The notes under the pieces are model-generated. The model saw nothing but the letters and a program-made list of their open reading frames with translations. It made no database searches and had not been told where the DNA came from. From Kangiella geojedonensis (GTDB lineage: Bacteria; Pseudomonadota; Gammaproteobacteria; Enterobacterales; Kangiellaceae), in NCBI RefSeq assembly GCF_000981765.1, contig NZ_CP010975.1, forward strand, positions 1,302,001 to 1,366,000: 64,000 bases of DNA, read 5' to 3'. Positions within the stretch are counted from its first letter, which is position 1. Every line of letters begins with the position of its first letter. Both the position numbers and the translations under genes were made by a program. Of this stretch, positions 39,924 through 63,138 are shown piece after piece.

Positions 39924-41993
39924 TTAGTCGTCTTTGTCTTCAGACTTATCTTCCGCGTTTATTTCTTCTAATGTTTTCTCATGCTTCAAGTCGTAAGCTG
40001 GTGGCTCTCCGCCATCACCCTTCAAGTAATGGTCCATCCAACGAACTAAACGTAAAGAATAATCGTACTGTCCCGCGGCTTTACGGTTACCATGACCTTC
40101 ACCTGGATACAATACTAAACGAACCGGCGCTTGCCCTAAGGTTTTCACGTAACGGTAAAGCTCCATAGATTGAGATGGGTGAACTCGCGTATCGGAATCA
40201 CCATGCATAATCAATAGAGGGGTTTTAGCGTTTTTCACGTGATAAATTGGGCTGGTTTCCAACATCCACTGGAAGTCATCCCAAGGCCAAGCGCGAGCAT
40301 GTACGGCGTGCATTTCGTTTGGAATATCCGTTGTACCGAACTTAGACAGCTGATTCGAAATACCCACAAACATTACTGCGGCAGCATAATGCTCTGACAA
40401 CTTCGTTGCTGACCAGGCTGTTGCATAACCACCGTATGAGCCGCCAGTAATACCGACTCTATCGCTGTCCACCATGCCTTTCTCTACTAGCGCCAACTTA
40501 CCATCTAGAATATCGGTAAACTCAGGATCAGCATAAGCGTGCTGATCTAAGCGAGCAAACTCATCACCACGGCCAGTACTACCGCGGTAGTTTGGAATGA
40601 AAGCGAAGTAACCTTTTGCTGCAACCGCTTGGATTGGGTCAGCATAACGCGTATTCCAGCCATTTGAGCGATGCGCTTCTGGACCACCATGAATAAAGGC
40701 AATCATTGGGTAGCGTTTGCCTTTTTTGTAATTCAGCGGATAAACAAGAACGCCTTGAATTGTCAGACCATCACGAGCTTCATATTCAAACGCTTCTTGC
40801 TTGGCTAATGCAACATCATCCAGCCAAGGGTTAGAGTTAGTTAAACGCTGCATACCTGCACCTGTGATCGCAAATAGTTCACGAGGATGCTTGGCAGTAT
40901 CGGCAAGAACATAAACAGAGCCATTATCTGCTACCGATAAGCTGCGCTGAATGCCGTTACCATAATCAACAAGAGGCATCGCCGCGATACGACGTTTAAC
41001 AGCAGCCTTGACTACGCGACTTTCTAAACCTTTATGCTCAATATAAATCAAGTCGTCATCATGCCACTCAACATCCATCACGTGGCTGTCATCATTAGCT
41101 ACACGCTTCGAAACAGTTTCGTCATCAACATTCGCAATGTACAAAGCACCAGCAGTTGGATCGTTATAATCATTCGCACCGATAAAGGCGATGTTCTCAC
41201 CATCAGTTGACCAAACCGCTTTGCCTTGCTTACCTTCAGTTTTGAATTTAGCAACAACATCGCCATCTAAATCAATGACTTGAAGCGTTTTCTTCATGTA
41301 GATATCATCAATCAATGGTGTTGGAGATACTTGTACTAAAAGCTGATCGCTGACAGGGCTAAATTTGGCGCTAATCACGCTACCTTCAATATTGATGCTC
41401 TCCGGCTTGGCTTCATCGTCATTTAAGTTGTAAAGCCATGCTTTAACATTCTGAATGTCTTCTTCGTAAACTTTAGCTTGGAAGCCTTTCTGCACTAACT
41501 TCTCTTTATGCTCAGGAGCGCCTTCTTTAGCGATAAAGACTAACTTGTCACCAGCGCTATTCAAGCTATAGCTCAGAATGTTGTTGTTCGTACCAACTAC
41601 TTTTTGCGATTCACCACCATCAACTGGAATACTGTAAACCCCAGCGAATGTATCGTCGTTGCGCATCGCAATGTAATAAATCGTCTTGCTGTCTTTCGAC
41701 CAGCGAACGGAACCAATGTTAACTTTGCCTGTGATAAAAGGCTTTGCTTCGCCACCAATCGGCTTTACATACAGTTCAGACCAAGCTGTTCCATCATTAT
41801 CAATATAAGGCTTTCGCTTATTACTTTTAGTATAAGCAACCCATTGGCCATCAGGAGAAACTTTGGCTGAGCCAACTGACTCTATCTTCGCAATATCTTT
41901 TAACGTTAAGCCTTTGTTCTCAGCAGCTTGGCCCGACATTGAGCCAACTGTTCCGAACAAAGACAACCCCATGAAAAATAGTATTTTTTTCAT
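39924..41993 (-). CDS. Exported S9-family prolyl oligopeptidase / acylaminoacyl-peptidase-like enzyme
   Basis: A 689-residue serine peptidase with a signal peptide (1-23, SGQAAEN cleavage region), a WD/beta-propeller domain (about 30-400) and a C-terminal alpha/beta hydrolase. Catalytic triad: Ser in GGSYGGYATAW near 519, Asp in HGDSDTRVHPSQS near 598, His in GEGHGNRKAAG near 633. It should cleave short peptides in the periplasm. The C-terminal tail is acidic (EDKSEDKDD). It is divergent from the small-RNA candidate at 42129, and its promoter must lie in the shared interval. Confidence 0.88.
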   Translation of the reverse strand: MKKILFFMGLSLFGTVGSMSGQAAENKGLTLKDIAKIESVGSAKVSPDGQWVAYTKSNKRKPYIDNDGTAWSELYVKPIGGEAKPFITGKVNIGSVRWSKDSKTIYYIAMRNDDTFAGVYSIPVDGGESQKVVGTNNNILSYSLNSAGDKLVFIAKEGAPEHKEKLVQKGFQAKVYEEDIQNVKAWLYNLNDDEAKPESINIEGSVISAKFSPVSDQLLVQVSPTPLIDDIYMKKTLQVIDLDGDVVAKFKTEGKQGKAVWSTDGENIAFIGANDYNDPTAGALYIANVDDETVSKRVANDDSHVMDVEWHDDDLIYIEHKGLESRVVKAAVKRRIAAMPLVDYGNGIQRSLSVADNGSVYVLADTAKHPRELFAITGAGMQRLTNSNPWLDDVALAKQEAFEYEARDGLTIQGVLVYPLNYKKGKRYPMIAFIHGGPEAHRSNGWNTRYADPIQAVAAKGYFAFIPNYRGSTGRGDEFARLDQHAYADPEFTDILDGKLALVEKGMVDSDRVGITGGSYGGYATAWSATKLSEHYAAAVMFVGISNQLSKFGTTDIPNEMHAVHARAWPWDDFQWMLETSPIYHVKNAKTPLLIMHGDSDTRVHPSQSMELYRYVKTLGQAPVRLVLYPGEGHGNRKAAGQYDYSLRLVRWMDHYLKGDGGEPPAYDLKHEKTLEEINAEDKSEDKDD

Positions 41994-42094
41994 ACAATTA
42001 CTCTGTGTTTTGAATTTCGGTTAGCATAGTAAAAAATGTGAAACAGGTCTAGGTTGGTTTGTGACTTTAGGTAAGAAATACGGGGGGAACAATG

Positions 42095-42122
42095 TTACAA
42101 ACTGTTACAATTGGCGTATAGT
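42095..42122 (+). promoter_or_regulatory. Candidate sigma-70 promoter for the small RNA at 42129
   Basis: TTACAA (42095-42100), 16-bp spacer, TATAGT (42117-42122). The predicted start is about 42129. Both hexamers are imperfect but well spaced, and no protein gene lies downstream before the terminator. Confidence 0.45.
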
Positions 42123-42128
42123 AAAACA

Positions 42129-42256
42129 TAATGGCTTCAATTAAAGTACTCCTGAACACAACGGTTAACTACCCCCTAACTGTGTGTTCGCATCTCAAAA
42201 TATCTCCTTCTCATTTTGAGACGCAATTTTTAGCCCCCTCTTTGGGGGCTTTTTTA
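42129..42256 (+). ncRNA. Candidate small RNA with two pyrimidine-rich loops
   Basis: A plus-strand terminator (AGCCCCC/GGGGGCT, 42232-42250, then T6) stands where no plus-strand gene precedes it; on the minus strand the same hairpin has no T-run. Upstream are two more stem-loops. Hairpin 1 (42156-42187, 11 bp with one bulged A) has loop ACTACCCCC. Hairpin 2 (TCTCAAAAT/ATTTTGAGA, 42193-42221) has loop ATCTCCTTCTC, complementary to Shine-Dalgarno-like GAGAAGGAGAT. Three hairpins, a promoter and an intrinsic terminator within about 130 nt are the layout of a trans-acting sRNA. The only ORF (44 codons) reads through the terminator, so coding is unlikely. Confidence 0.55.
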
Positions 42257-42276
42257 TGGCTATAAGACTCGCACAA

Positions 42277-42540
42277 TCAATCACTTAACTGCATCCTAAC
42301 GCAAGCCTCAAATATCGGTTGGTAAATGGCTTGAAGTTCCTCACGAGTGAAATGATGACCATGGCGCTTATGTAGCGCGCTGACCACAGCCTCCTCTCTC
42401 TCTGGAATCCGCGCCGATACCCCCTGCTCTTTTTTTACTGCCATCAAAGACTGGACCAGTTCTGCTCGCTGTTCAATCAGTTGAACTAAACGTTCATCAA
42501 CGTCATCAATGTTTGCTCGTATTGCCTCAAGTGACTCCAT
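42277..42540 (-). CDS. Chorismate mutase, AroQ class, stand-alone
   Basis: An 87-residue all-helical AroQ domain. IRANIDDVDERLVQLIEQRAELVQ carries the first-helix Arg/Asp-x2-Asp pattern, and a Lys (KKEQGV) and a RIPEREE segment follow, as in the chorismate mutase domain of PheA. It converts chorismate to prephenate. No signal peptide, so it is cytosolic. It is the second chorismate mutase in the window (the other is fused in pheA at 45966). Isochorismate-pyruvate lyase is a related alternative. It is divergent from cmoA, whose product consumes prephenate. Confidence 0.82.
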   Translation of the reverse strand: MESLEAIRANIDDVDERLVQLIEQRAELVQSLMAVKKEQGVSARIPEREEAVVSALHKRHGHHFTREELQAIYQPIFEACVRMQLSD

Positions 42541-42636: not shown

Positions 42637-43365
42637 ATGAGCAAAAAAGATAACATCTACGCTGATCAGCTGGAACAAGTCGAGTCATTCAACTTTGACC
42701 AAAAGGTCGTGGAAGTTTTTCCCGACATGATTAAACGTTCCGTGCCCGGTTATACTGCAATCATTGATGGCATCGGCCAGCTAGCTAAAAAATATACACA
42801 AGCGAACAGCTCGGTTTACGATCTGGGTTGCTCCCTTGGTGCGGCGACACTCTCTATCCGTGAGGCTGTTAATGATGAAAGCTGCCAAATCATCGCAGTC
42901 GATAACTCAACAGCAATGATTGAGCGTTGTAAACTCATCCAGTCTGGCTATAACTTTTCCATGCCAGTGGAGATGGTTGAAGCAGACATCAATGACTTAG
43001 ACTTTAAAAATGCAAGCTTCGTTGTTTTAAACTTTACGCTTCAGTTTCTACCAAGAGAGCAACGCCAGACATTGCTCAATAATATCTATCAGGGGCTAAA
43101 CCCAGGTGGAGCGCTGGTTTTATCAGAAAAGTTGACCATGAGCTCTGAAGAGCTTGATGCAAGCATCATCAATATCCATCACGACTTTAAAAAGCAAAAC
43201 GGCTACAGCGATATGGAAATTGCTCAAAAGCGCGCGGCCTTAGAAAACGTGCTAATCCCGGACACGCGAGAACAACATTATCAACGCTTTGAAAATGCAG
43301 GCTTTAAGCAGTTTGACACTTGGTTCCAACACTATAATTTCGCATCATTTATTGCCGTAAAATAA
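42637..43365 (+). CDS. cmoA: Carboxy-S-adenosyl-L-methionine synthase
   Basis: A 242-residue class I methyltransferase-fold enzyme that makes carboxy-SAM from SAM and prephenate for wobble-uridine modification. Motif I is VYDLGCSLGAATLSIR near residue 66. FTLQFLPREQRQ and GLNPGGALVLSEK are the later family motifs. E. coli CmoA is 247 residues. cmoB begins one base after its stop. Confidence 0.95.
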   Translation: MSKKDNIYADQLEQVESFNFDQKVVEVFPDMIKRSVPGYTAIIDGIGQLAKKYTQANSSVYDLGCSLGAATLSIREAVNDESCQIIAVDNSTAMIERCKLIQSGYNFSMPVEMVEADINDLDFKNASFVVLNFTLQFLPREQRQTLLNNIYQGLNPGGALVLSEKLTMSSEELDASIINIHHDFKKQNGYSDMEIAQKRAALENVLIPDTREQHYQRFENAGFKQFDTWFQHYNFASFIAVK

Positions 43366-56055: not shown

Positions 56056-58419
56056 TTAATCCTTGGGAGGTGGCGGCGCTAAAACCTCTCTCGCCCCGTT
56101 ACTGCCCATCTCAGACACAATTCCAGCGGCTTCCATTGCTTCAACCATGCGCGCTGCTCGGTTATAACCAATCTTCAGGCGACGCTGAATCCCGGAAATC
56201 GAGGCCCGACGGCTTTCTGTAACGATGGCTACAGCTTGATCAAACAGTTCATCCTGCTCGCTATCGCCACCGTCCATTCCTGGCATACCCGGTACTGGGA
56301 CTTCAGAGGTGCCACTGATCACTTCTTCAATATAATCCGGCTCACCACGCATTTTCCAGTCTTCAACCACGCGATGAACTTCGTCATCGTCAACGAAAGC
56401 ACCGTGAACACGAGTCGGGATATTGCTACCGCCGGGTAAATACAGCATGTCACCCATACCCAGAAGTTGCTCAGCACCGGTTTGATCAAGAACCGTACGT
56501 GAATCAATTTTTGACGATACTTGGAAGCCAATTCGTGATGGGATGTTCGCTTTAATCAAGCCCGTAATAACGTCAACCGACGGTCTTTGGGTGGCTAAAA
56601 TGAGGTGAATACCTGCTGCACGAGCTTTCTGAGCAATCCGAGCAATCAGCTCTTCAACCTTCTTACCTACGATCATCATCATGTCGGCCAACTCATCAAT
56701 CACAATAACAATCGATGGTAGCTTATCTAAGGTTGGTGGCTCTTCTTCTAAATCATCAGTCGGCTGCCATAATGGATCTTTAATGGGTTCGCCGGCTTTA
56801 ATCGCGTCTTTAACCTTTTTATTAAAGCCCGCTAAGTTACGAACACCCAACGCAGACATCAAGCGATAACGTCGTTCCATTTCGCCCACTGACCAACGCA
56901 AAGCATTAGCCGCATCTTTCATGTCAGTCACCACCTCACACAACAAGTGAGGAATCCCCTCATAAACGCTTAGCTCAAGCATTTTAGGGTCAATCATGAT
57001 CATGCGTAAATCTTCAGGCGATGACTTATAGAGCATACTGATAATCATCGCGTTCACACCAACCGACTTACCCGAACCCGTGGTACCGGCGACTAATAAG
57101 TGTGGCATTTTCGCCATGTTCACCACGACAGGATTACCCGCGATATCTTTGCCCAGCGCCATACTGAGAGGTGACTTTGACTTTTCGAATTCATCGCACG
57201 CTAACACTTCACGCAAGCGTACAATTTCACGACTTTCGTTGGGGATTTCGATACCAACATAGGTTTTGCCAGGAATCACTTCGACCACACGAACCGATAT
57301 GGTCGACAAGGAGCGCGCTAAATCTTTAGCCAGGTTTGAGATTTTGCTAACCTTTACGCCAGGCGCCAGCTCAAGCTCAAAGCGTGTAATCACAGGGCCT
57401 GGGTGCACTTCCATCACCTCAGCATCGACATTGAAGTCCTTTAGCTTCAACTCGACAAGACGGGACATTGCCTCCAAAGCTTCCTCAGAAAAGTGATTCT
57501 TCGGTGGTTCCGGCTCGTCGAGTAGCTCCATTCTGGGTAAAGGCCCCTCGCCTGCGCCTTCGAACAGCGGCTTTTGTCGTGTTTTCTTTTCGACTTTTGC
57601 GCTTGGTGGTACAGACGCTACTTTTGGCTCAATTTTGACCGGCTTACGGGTTTCACGCTTAGTCTTTTCTTGCTTAATAGCTTCTTTGCGCTTAACCACT
57701 ACCTGCTTAACTTCTTTCTCTTCTTTTTTCTTTTCTTTAAAGGAAGCATACCAATCTTTTAGATTGTTAATGGTAGTAATGGTCCAGCGACCAACGGTAT
57801 CCATAATTTTAAGCCATGAAATACCCGTAAATAAGGTCACGCCTGATAAAAATAAGGCAAGTAGAATTAGCGTAGTACCATACAAGCCTAATGAGCCAAT
57901 AATCAGTCCTACGATAGCTTTACCCAAAATACCGCCTGAGAAATAAACGATATCGGTTTGCTGGTGACAAACGTCAAGTCCGGCGATGCATTTATCGCCA
58001 AAGTGCTGATATAACAAACCAGCACCAGCAATAATCGCAATAATTAAACCTGCGCTTTTAATCAACCAAAAACTCTTAGGATGAGAAACCTCTTCTTTAC
58101 GCTCGGCGTAAACAAGGTAACCAAAATAAGCCACCACCAGAGGAATCAAGTAGGCTAAATAGCCAAAAAGATGCAAAAAGAAATCGGCAAACCAAGCGCC
58201 ACCTTTGCCCGCTGCATTTTGCACAGGCGCACCGCTACCGTTGGTAAAAGAACCGGGATCATTAGGGTTGTAGCTCAGCAAGGCCAATAATAAGAACAAA
58301 GCAATAGTGACCAGAATGATCATTCCGCCTTCGCTAAGTCTTTTACGGAGTATGGCTTTCGAATCTAACTGAGTATCTTTTTTCTTTGTTGCTGCTTGTT
58401 TTGTTTTAGTTTTACTCAA
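56056..58419 (-). CDS. ftsK: DNA translocase FtsK
   Basis: A 787-residue septal DNA pump that moves chromosome termini and activates XerCD at dif. Four N-terminal membrane helices (about 30-200), a basic/Pro-poor linker with Lys-rich runs (about 225-300), the RecA-like motor with Walker [16 protein letters not shown] near residue 445 and Walker [14 protein letters not shown] near 580, then the gamma winged-helix (about 720-785, [28 protein letters not shown]) that reads KOPS sequences. The linker is far shorter than in E. coli FtsK (1329 residues), which is common in this class. Confidence 0.97.
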
Positions 58420-60826: not shown

Positions 60827-62359
60827 CTATTTATCAATAGTGACACTGTAGTTGCCAGCTCCTGAATACGAGTAAACAATAACTCGATAATAGCCAGCGT
60901 TAGCACTGTAGTTAATACTCTCCACAGAGGTCGGTGTTTCAGATATAGCCACCTGAGACCAGCCATTACCGTTCCAGCGCTCAAGCTTGATATCAAAGTC
61001 TGAACTGCTTGGCCCCGTCATATCGACCGATATAGTACCACCATTATAGTAGAACCAGCTCCCATCAGGCTCAATAGCACTGCCGCCATTATTGAGATAA
61101 CCTGTGTAGGTATCACCACCACCTGGAGGGGTTGCAGACACACCATAGTTGTATACATTTGACCAAGCGCAATACTTTTGCCCGCCTCTTTCTAGCCAAA
61201 AATAGTTACAGTCACCGTCATAGCTATCACGCCCCGTATCGACCTTGTAGCCAGACAGTTTAATCCCGTCTAAATGATAGAACTGACCGTTTCGCTTTAA
61301 AGAAAAGTGTAGATGTGGGCCACTCGATTGGCCTCCATTACACAAGGCTTGGTTGTAGCTATCAGCATAATTAGCAATTTTAGCATTCCGATTAACACTG
61401 GTGTTACTACCGTACTGAATATTTTCAAGGTGATAATAAGTTGTAGACCAACCATCATCATGGATCACTTCCATGAAACATGATGAGTGATACTTCACTG
61501 TGCCAGGTGCTGCCGCAGTTACCCAGATATGATTTAAGTTATCGCCCCAGCGACCACCGTCATTAAAGTCTAACGATGATTGCGGGTAACTACCACTACC
61601 AGTATTGGTATGAGTACCACCGTTACGCCACGTTTCACCGACCAGATAAGGTAATTGAAAGTAATTGTCGATATTAGCAATTTTCGACTGGCTCGCAGTG
61701 GTGGCCTTGACTTGATAATCGGCATTGCCAAACAGTTTATTGTAAGTTTGGCCGACCGCTATCACGGCTTTACTGTGTGCCGTTTCATTGGGCTTCAACG
61801 CTTGGTCTGCATTTGAGCTGTATTTTGGCAACAAAATCGCCTTAACGGCTTTAACTGCATCGCGGTCGGTTGTCAGTTTTTCATTAATTCCGGTATCGGC
61901 GAACGAGTGTCCTTTATAGAACTCTACAGCCAACTTTGAACTGATATCTTCCACCTGCTGACGAAAACCGACTTTACTGGATAAAACACCAAAAGGACGA
62001 TCCAGTTTCGCCACGGTTTTACTGTCAGTAACAACACCGCTCTCTTGCTCCATTAGAGCTATAAGCAATTTAGGGCTAATTGACGAATACCCTGCATAAT
62101 GGGAGATCACTTCAGCATGCTCCAATAAATGCGGAGCTTTTTCTTGCAAATAACTTTCTAGATCGAAGTTTAGCATTTCGTCATAATCATAGACGATTTG
62201 CTGCTTGGTTAAAGCATCATTAACGGCTTGTGTGACTTCTGTTTTATTGTCAGTTACCGCGATCGATGTTTTTGTATATGCTTCACTTGCTGGTGTGTAG
62301 GTGCCGATAGCTATAGCACTAACCAGCCCTAAGCTGATATAGACATGTTGTAGTTTCAT
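60827..62359 (-). CDS. Secreted LasA-like M23 metallopeptidase with PPC domain
   Basis: A 510-residue exported enzyme. Signal peptide (about 1-25), a propeptide (about 30-235) and an M23 catalytic domain (about 240-400). The catalytic domain has zinc ligands in GGTHTNTGSGSYPQSSLDFNDGGRW (His near 249, Asp near 262) and SGPHLHFSL near 348. The C-terminal pre-peptidase C (PPC) beta domain (about 425-510) ends YSGAGNYSVTIDK and is often removed or used in type II secretion. The layout matches staphylolysin LasA, which cleaves glycine-rich peptides, so bacterial cell-wall lysis or elastin-like substrates are likely. No gene is visible in the 62360-62590 interval upstream. Confidence 0.88.
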   Translation of the reverse strand: MKLQHVYISLGLVSAIAIGTYTPASEAYTKTSIAVTDNKTEVTQAVNDALTKQQIVYDYDEMLNFDLESYLQEKAPHLLEHAEVISHYAGYSSISPKLLIALMEQESGVVTDSKTVAKLDRPFGVLSSKVGFRQQVEDISSKLAVEFYKGHSFADTGINEKLTTDRDAVKAVKAILLPKYSSNADQALKPNETAHSKAVIAVGQTYNKLFGNADYQVKATTASQSKIANIDNYFQLPYLVGETWRNGGTHTNTGSGSYPQSSLDFNDGGRWGDNLNHIWVTAAAPGTVKYHSSCFMEVIHDDGWSTTYYHLENIQYGSNTSVNRNAKIANYADSYNQALCNGGQSSGPHLHFSLKRNGQFYHLDGIKLSGYKVDTGRDSYDGDCNYFWLERGGQKYCAWSNVYNYGVSATPPGGGDTYTGYLNNGGSAIEPDGSWFYYNGGTISVDMTGPSSSDFDIKLERWNGNGWSQVAISETPTSVESINYSANAGYYRVIVYSYSGAGNYSVTIDK

Positions 62360-62590
62360 TTTACCCCCTAAAATGTAAAGAATGAGTCCAGCGACGCTAG
62401 ACTTTTTGCAAAATTACATAAAAGTCAGTAATAGAAAACATTTTTTGGCCATCTAGATGTTAATAAGTCTGATTTTGAGATATGTGTATATTTTGTACAG
62501 TTTGATACGGATTAGATATTTCTAAATATTGCGAATGCAACAATATAGTTACTAAAAGAGAAATGAAATTGATGGATTAAGTGAAGACAT

Positions 62591-62617
62591 AAAAAAAGCC
62601 GCTCATTGAGCGGCTTT
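62591..62617 (-). terminator. Rho-independent terminator of the cold-shock gene
   Basis: On the minus strand AAAGCCGCTC-AAT-GAGCGGCTTT followed by T4 (A7 on the plus strand from 62591). The hairpin core is the same as after ald. Confidence 0.9.
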
Positions 62618-62641
62618 CTTAGAAACGTTTAAAGTATATAA

Positions 62642-62848
62642 TTATACTTTAGTAACGTTAGCAGCTTGAGCGCCTTTAGGGCCTTGCTCGATTTCGAACT
62701 CAACCTGTTGGCCTTCTGCTAAAGTTTTGAAGCCGTCACCTTGAATAGCGCGGAAGTGTACGAATACGTCTTCGCCAGCTTGCTGCTCGATGAAACCAAA
62801 ACCTTTAGACTCGTTGAACCACTTAACTGTACCAGTTACTTTTGACAT
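62642..62848 (-). CDS. Cold-shock domain protein (CspA family)
   Basis: A 68-residue single cold-shock domain that binds single-stranded RNA/DNA as a chaperone. RNP1 (SKGFGFIEQ) and RNP2 (DVFVHFRAI) are intact. TTGGAG precedes the ATG. Upstream lie 290 bp without a gene, shared with the divergent DsbA-family gene. A long structured leader is possible, with ACCC/GGGGT pairing around 62898-62910, but no classical cold box was recognised. Confidence 0.95.
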
Positions 62849-63138
62849 GATATTTCTCCAAAGCTAATTTGCTTAAAAATTAATGTTTGCGTCGAAAACC
62901 CCCTATGGGTCACTAACGCGGGTGTTACTGAGATAAAAACGGCATTAACTTAGATAACAAATAGCGGTGGTACGACAGTAAGTGATTCAAAGTCTGTACT
63001 TTTTAGCACTCGGGTGTAGCATCGAACATATGTATCTTTCGTGTTAGCTGTTATTTTAACCAGCGTGTGTAGAATACTATATACACAGGGGAAGTAAAGT
63101 ATTATTTTGTAGATTCATGCAACTGTCACTATTTTAAT

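Follow-up and report, generated by a model that had tools for sequence, protein, structure and literature searches.

The Locus and Its Neighbours

The window analysed here (64,000 nucleotides of the genome of Kangiella geojedonensis) contains a three-hairpin element on its plus strand, located between an S9 peptidase gene and a stand-alone gene for an AroQ-type chorismate mutase, both on the minus strand; a plus-strand methyltransferase gene, which we take to be cmoA, follows (Table 1). The S9 peptidase gene and cmoA flank the element in all 20 Kangiella genomes. The opposite-strand aroQ was detected between the element and cmoA in 11 of them, the window's included; the nine in which none was detected at this place include G004, G010, G012, G015, G016, and G017.

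The initial annotation described an intrinsic terminator in plus orientation with no plus-strand gene before it, preceded by two stem-loops. Both parts of that description are borne out: a stem is followed by T residues, no plus-strand gene ends at it, and the two loops read exactly as given (ACTACCCCC and ATCTCCTTCTC). The T-run is kept in 18 of 18 aligned loci. Because the T-run occurs on just one strand, the plus strand, a minus-strand terminator serving aroQ was ruled out. Opposite hairpin 2 the minus strand has a micro-ORF with a good ribosome-binding site, which would encode MRTHS in the window and MRDLALRGS in certain relatives; it was likewise rejected, as no ATG is present there in G004, G010, G015, and G016.

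Table 1. Features of the small RNA locus and of one candidate target (positions in the window)
Feature	Position	Strand	Basis
S9 peptidase gene, adjoining the RNA locus	39924-41993	-	
Probable activator box, OmpR-type or RstA-type (GTTACA-AACT-GTTACA)	42094-42109	+	Equals motif GTTACAnnnnGTTACA
Probable -10 element (TAAAGT)	42142-42147	+	Conserved spacing
Small RNA, three hairpins, about 102 nt	42154-42255	+	Ends inferred from -10 position and terminator
Hairpin 1, C-rich loop ACTACCCCC at 42168-42176	42154-42189	+	Compensatory changes
Hairpin 2, anti-Shine-Dalgarno loop ATCTCCTTCTC at 42202-42212	42190-42224	+	Invariant pairs
U-rich linker ahead of terminator, possible Hfq contact	42225-42231	+	Sequence
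Intrinsic terminator, stem 42232-42250, then T-run	42232-42255	+	Fold, T-run
aroQ-type chorismate mutase gene	42277-42540	-	
Methyltransferase gene	42637-43365	+	Pfam: methyltransferase
Candidate target gene, M23 metallopeptidase, 510 aa	60827-62359	-	PF01551, 4.9e-09 on first 499 residues
Candidate target site TTAGGGGGTAA, M23 ribosome-binding site	62361-62371	-	10 nt complementary to loop 1

Predicted Structure

The predicted fold of positions 42154-42254 has an energy of -39.3 kcal/mol, compared with a mean of -15.3 kcal/mol for shuffled sequences (z = -8.52); the z-score for positions 42129-42256 is -6.06, and none of 200 shuffles matched the stability of either interval. The minimum-energy fold and the centroid of the window sequence both give three hairpins, and an anti-terminator alternative was seen in neither. 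Loop 1 is predicted to be unpaired; in the window's RNA, loop 2 reads AUCUCCUUCUC and loop 3 UCUUU. In a single sequence among 18 (L013, which was folded together with its upstream flank), the minimum-energy fold lacks hairpin 2.

Conservation and Covariation

A DNA search matched 18 of 61 genomes, comprising 18 of the 20 in the window's genus and none of 41 elsewhere. A covariance model built from 14 of these 18 sequences matches all 20 genomes of the genus, with its weakest match (E = 0.022) in G004, where reading of hairpin 2 and the promoter confirmed the element; it matches none of 20 genomes from the family's five other genera. An exact hairpin-2 pattern, which would miss variants, was found among 84,980 species genomes (a set from which the window's own record may be absent) in 14 stretches, 13 of them from Kangiella and one from a Kangiellaceae bacterium. 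Elsewhere, at a weak match of the covariance model (E = 0.085), the minus-strand stretch L039 (G009:C1:979059-979146) carries another hairpin, with ACTCCTCCTACCCCA as its C/U-rich loop, and a terminator after it; it lies 3' of a same-strand ORF, as judged by eye, and is possibly a small RNA derived from a 3'-UTR.

Covariation was counted in 14 of the 20 genomes (12 distinct sequences); G004, G010, G012, G015, G016, and G017 have a different hairpin 1 and were set aside. In this alignment 97.4% of cells pair overall and 96.2% in hairpin 1. Cells changed on both sides number 37, compared with 14.7 in shuffles, and the covariation score is 0.321, compared with 0.146; neither value was reached in 500 shuffles, and the signal is lost when partners are shifted by 1-3 columns. 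Two of the five covariation measures were not above the shuffles, namely pairs with a double change (8 versus 6.6, reached by 97 of 500) and further pair types (17 versus 16.6, reached by 279 of 500). The signal comes from hairpin 1, with double changes in seven of its 11 pairs, and from one terminator pair. No hairpin-1 pair survives in a sequence-only alignment of 18 sequences, because hairpin 1 differs in a second group; each sequence of that group can still form a hairpin at the same place.

Hairpin 2 behaves differently from its neighbour. Its 11 pairs are all invariant across the 12 distinct rows, so that covariation speaks neither for nor against it, and its 9-bp core and loop fit one pattern, with one variable base and one optional A, in all 20 genomes; to judge from the alignments, it is the sequence that is kept here and not pairing alone. 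Loop 2 is ACCUCCUU in 12 genomes, AUCUCCUU in seven, and AACUCCUU in one; in all its eight bases, ACCUCCUU matches the canonical ribosomal anti-Shine-Dalgarno sequence. Loop 1 is C-rich (four or five C residues) in 14 of the 20 genomes; the remaining six have a different loop 1. Thus the test on relatives favours the small RNA, with loop 2 kept throughout the genus, a C-rich loop 1 in most of it, and compensatory changes in stem 1.

Rfam 15 gives no match at the window's locus at the gathering score, and none in 20 loci, 19 of which carry the element (19 of 20 genomes; L012 of G011 was left out); a permissive scan of positions 42060-42280 returned 18 sub-threshold matches, the best at 24.3 bits where the gathering score is 51.4. 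The initial annotation had placed the three-hairpin layout in no described family, and these scans agree. More broadly, the initial annotation had put forward a new small RNA of trans-acting type with C-rich and anti-Shine-Dalgarno loops; conservation, compensation in hairpin 1, promoter elements, and the lack of an Rfam match support it. The RNA is real, conserved, and absent from Rfam, and it belongs with the structured RNAs that bear C-rich or anti-Shine-Dalgarno loops.

Promoter and Putative Regulator

The promoter first proposed for the RNA, TTACAA-N16-TATAGT, is present in the sequence (42095-42100 and 42117-42122) but is not conserved, and it was rejected; in an 18-genome alignment read by eye, no genome but that of the window has TATAGT intact. 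Promoter-like sites between 40500 and 44000 number nine, compared with 6.4 (sd 2.1) in shuffles, which is not clearly above chance. A probable -10 box lies 31-32 nt after GTTACA in all 20 genomes (TAAAGT in 18, TACAGT in two), and the -35 region of this conserved promoter is weak and degenerate. Judging from the position of TAAAGT, the RNA would start at about 42154, where hairpin 1 begins, and not at the 5' end of about 42129 that had been implied before.

The GTTACA 3' half-site is present in all 20 genomes and the full GTTACA-N4-GTTACA in eight (L001-L008), including that of the window. The window's copy is identical to the OmpR motif GTTACAnnnnGTTACA quoted in PMC7315122, where the same passage gives a similar motif for RstA. 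The genome encodes Hfq and 11 proteins with an OmpR-type DNA-binding domain; six of these were scored with NCBIfam, and among them L114 reaches 441.7 bits as an OmpR equivalog, above the cut-off of 331, and L113 is RstA-like, below its cut-off (236.4 versus 330). OmpR control is plausible because the box equals the OmpR motif and the genome has an OmpR equivalog, and the RNA is probably under the control of OmpR or a relative such as RstA, judging from these sequences. No second OmpR-box gene was found as support for a regulon; the genome's only other exact GTTACA-N4-GTTACA (G000:C1:1613860-1613875, L067) is within an ORF.

Candidate Targets of Loop 2

The sequence GAGAAGGAG occurs 2-11 nt ahead of an ATG at 59 places in the 20 genomes, compared with 37 for the reversed pattern. 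Twelve of the 59 are the RNA locus itself and six are an M4 metallopeptidase gene; without these, 41 places stand against 37, with no excess. The M4 gene (PF01447, 1.2e-36) is the one recurring gene among these places, in six genomes. Near matches to the loop-2 complement were not in excess either: among the matches listed there were 157 in the 20 genomes, against 157 for the reversed control, and in 11 genomes there were 69 against 110. When all 69 places were read, M4 was the only extended start-codon match common to several genomes; matches of this kind in single genomes include L180 in G007 and L218 in G018. A genus-wide loop-2 target that would explain the invariance of hairpin 2 was not found. 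Other genes, all named by eye, carry GAGAAGGAG more sporadically: a carboxymuconolactone-decarboxylase-like gene has it ahead of the ATG in two of the six genomes where the gene was seen, a membrane protein gene has it in two of two (both from the GAGAAGGAG search itself), and a Pcm-like gene with it has no further ortholog among the loci examined.

Orthologs of the M4 gene are found in 11 of the 20 genomes and were not found in the other nine, which keep the RNA (one of these, G002, is 55% complete). In six of the ten orthologs tested, a stretch of 10-19 nt at the M4 ribosome-binding site is complementary to hairpin 2. For the hairpin-2 complement lengths the M4 start was located in four of the 11 orthologs; the exact complement to the genome's own hairpin 2 extends over 19 nt in G014, 18 in G001, 13 in G000 (where 18 of 19 positions match with one mismatch), and 12 in G005. 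Measured against the genome's own loop-2 segment, it is 16 nt in G008 and 10 nt in G018. Loop-2 duplex energies for the six M4 leaders range from -19.0 to -23.8 kcal/mol, and the best background value is -16.7 kcal/mol; the background consists of 335 other gene starts from 18 genomes (G003 and G011 are absent), each scored with its own RNA, and these starts were called mechanically and may be wrong in places. Four other M4 orthologs show ordinary loop-2 pairing, with fractions of 0.081 (G006), 0.125 (G003), 0.125 (G013), and 0.519 (G019); L162 of G011, whose locus bounds were cut differently, was left out of this energy test.

The long M4 matches involve loop 2 together with the 3' strand of the hairpin-2 stem, which gives a simple reason for a frozen stem. 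Since M4 was not found in nine of the genomes that keep hairpin 2, there must be another class of target, or more than one. Within the M4 leader lies a small inverted repeat, TCTCA/TGAGA, complete in three leaders and truncated in another, which might independently account for some of the complementarity.

In five genomes the M4 leader contains AGGGGGTA, or most of it, 108-129 nt ahead of the start. Co-evolution of this leader with loop 1 looked good by eye and failed an energy cross-test; the pairing is moderately rare (fractions 0.018-0.113), RNAs of other clades fit about equally well, and for both reasons it is not counted here. The leader can also form a long hairpin, GCTGAAG...CTTCAGC or near it, about 50-130 nt ahead of the start in five genomes (L153-L157, by eye; folded for L153 only), suggesting a further control in the M4 leader. 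Separately, a gene for a 787-aa FtsK-like protein (named by eye; window position 58419, minus strand) has a TTG start region, ATATTTTGAG, that is complementary to the 5' strand of the hairpin-2 stem over 10 nt in G000, G001, and G005 and over 8-9 nt in four other genomes; this may reflect a coding constraint.

A Candidate Target of Loop 1

With one mismatch allowed, TTAGGGGGTAG occurs at 22 non-self places in the RNA's own genome, compared with 26 for the control, with no excess. One of the 22, TTAGGGGGTA, has the position of a ribosome-binding site and precedes the ATG of an M23 metallopeptidase gene. As one choice among 22 near matches, it draws its weight from this position and from two orthologs. 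These, found in two of 17 syntenic stretches, keep the loop-1 complement as TAGGGGGTA (9 nt, G014) and TTAGGGGG (8 nt, G008). Among the 335 background starts ranked for loop 1, the window's M23 gene is third and the G008 ortholog fourth; the first is the RNA locus itself, because one of the background starts is that of the S9 peptidase gene, which is preceded by the antisense strand of the RNA locus and so trivially tops the ranking. The G014 start is absent from this set at its true site. The M23 start codon and ribosome-binding site fold into a small perfect hairpin, CATTTTA-GGGGG-TAAAATG (62357-62375, minus strand), and in this model its five-G loop could readily form a kissing pair with the five-C loop 1. 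Upstream of the M23 gene and on the same strand, Rfam identifies a cspA thermoregulator leader (62589-62980, minus strand, 88.8 bits).

Proposed Function

We favour, at a probability of roughly 0.6, a stand-alone, genus-specific RNA of about 102 nt that is under OmpR-type control and acts in trans as a repressor of exported-protease mRNAs. OmpR or a relative such as RstA would switch on the RNA, whose structured loops would present C- and CU-rich seeds to the ribosome-binding sites of these mRNAs; loop 2, with the 3' strand of its stem, would pair with the M4 metallopeptidase mRNA and loop 1 with that of the M23 enzyme. Pairing would block the 30S subunit and turn translation off, possibly with the help of Hfq; the predicted RNA is U-rich in its linker and its tail. 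The case for a small RNA is built on conservation, predicted structure and covariation, conserved promoter elements, and complementarity. We infer its transcription, its regulator, Hfq binding, and repression, as well as export of the M4 and M23 enzymes, judged from their N-termini by eye and from what is usual in their families. Kangiella is described as having a high share of secreted peptidases and growing on amino acids, and as living largely by protein digestion outside the cell (PMC6000758). An RNA that covers the M4 and M23 ribosome-binding sites under an OmpR-type box is the simplest account of these sequences.

A more elaborate version of this mechanism, which we regard as doubtful, would have an envelope-stress regulator drive a two-loop RNA that both shuts off exported proteases and dampens strongly translated mRNAs by imitating the ribosome. 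The loops would then be tuned separately, loop 1 evolving freely and loop 2 being a frozen near-copy of the anti-Shine-Dalgarno tail.

The likelihoods attached to the competing explanations overlap and are not meant to sum to one. The strongest competitor, possible and clearly less probable than repression of the two protease mRNAs, keeps the small RNA and its anatomy and gives it other main targets: mRNAs with strong Shine-Dalgarno sequences would be many weak targets, conserved targets would lie elsewhere, and the M4 and M23 matches would be lineage-specific or coincidental. It would account for a hairpin 2 that is frozen in 20 of 20 genomes, yet meets M4 in only 11 and pairs well in six of ten, and for a loop 1 that differs in G004, G010, G012, G015, G016, and G017; an exact match of 19 nt at one ribosome-binding site, together with similar matches in five other genomes, is nevertheless unlikely to arise by chance. 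It is improbable, in turn, that hairpin 2 is a global decoy that mimics the 3' tail of 16S rRNA, either competing with ribosomes or sequestering a tail-binding protein. Such a decoy would suit both the ACCUCCUU loop of 12 genomes and a stem of which neither strand varies; however, AUCUCCUU or AACUCCUU breaks the anti-Shine-Dalgarno identity in eight of 20 genomes, the window's included, and base pairing explains the gene-specific matches better.

Two further explanations turn on the flanking genes. In six of the 20 genomes the element and the cmoA gene downstream of it share one orientation, no aroQ was detected between them, and hairpin 2 ends 109-176 nt before the cmoA match; the element might serve there as an attenuator or leader in which transcripts start at the conserved promoter, stop at the terminator, and occasionally read through into cmoA. 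An intervening aroQ on the opposite strand in the window and ten further genomes, and window folds that agree on three hairpins without an anti-terminator alternative, make this about as improbable as the decoy. Finally, the minus-strand orientation of the neighbouring S9 peptidase gene would allow the terminator to end a longer plus-strand transcript antisense to that gene, with no separate RNA; this is the least probable explanation, in view of a promoter-like block at a near-constant distance from the hairpins in all 20 genomes and of the compensatory changes in hairpin 1.

Comparison with Known Small RNAs

The layout proposed here for a repressor of protease mRNAs can be set beside several known RNAs. 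CyaR (RyeE) of enterobacteria blocks ribosome binding through an anti-Shine-Dalgarno-like ACCUCCUU segment; it is CRP-controlled and differs in layout, and it was not among the Rfam matches at the locus, strict or permissive, or in the 20-locus scan. MicF is an OmpR-dependent small RNA, and the seeds of MicF and of OmrA/OmrB are located in unstructured 5' regions. The Kangiella RNA resembles these RNAs in having a probable OmpR-type box upstream, a short length with a terminator, and predicted cell-envelope or export targets; in contrast to theirs, its seeds are in hairpin loops. RNAIII and the UCCC-motif RNAs differ from it in sequence and size. OmrA and OmrB are described as EnvZ/OmpR-dependent small RNAs in PMC7315122. 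In Staphylococcus aureus, C-rich hairpin loops of RNAIII and the UCCC-motif RNAs pair with ribosome-binding sites, and RNAs of this species form kissing complexes at more than one loop (both as outlined in PMC3771888); like RNAIII, the Kangiella RNA has a C-rich hairpin loop matching a ribosome-binding site, in a different host.

The closest functional parallel is sX13 of Xanthomonas, which is described in PMC3771888 as having three stems, using C-rich apical loops (4C/5C) to repress mRNAs that carry G-rich motifs close to the start codon, and acting without Hfq. Both RNAs are strongly structured (z = -8.52 for that of Kangiella), with C-rich apical loop sequence, found in loop 1 of the Kangiella RNA, and little single-stranded sequence. 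As far as that account goes, sX13 carries a C-rich motif in all three loops, whereas loop 2 of the Kangiella RNA is of the anti-Shine-Dalgarno, CU-rich kind and hairpin 3 is the terminator; sX13 is discussed at the polA locus and the Kangiella RNA lies between the S9 peptidase gene and cmoA.

Significance

A literature search for Kangiella together with small RNA or sRNA returned no publication on a Kangiella RNA, judged by title, and as far as this title-level search goes, the RNA would be the first regulatory RNA described in the genus. Through it, two metallopeptidases for which pairing can be predicted precisely are tied to a conserved promoter that carries an OmpR-type box. The invariant stem of hairpin 2, beside a freely evolving neighbour, would make a clean case in which to study when one strand of a stem also serves to pair with targets.
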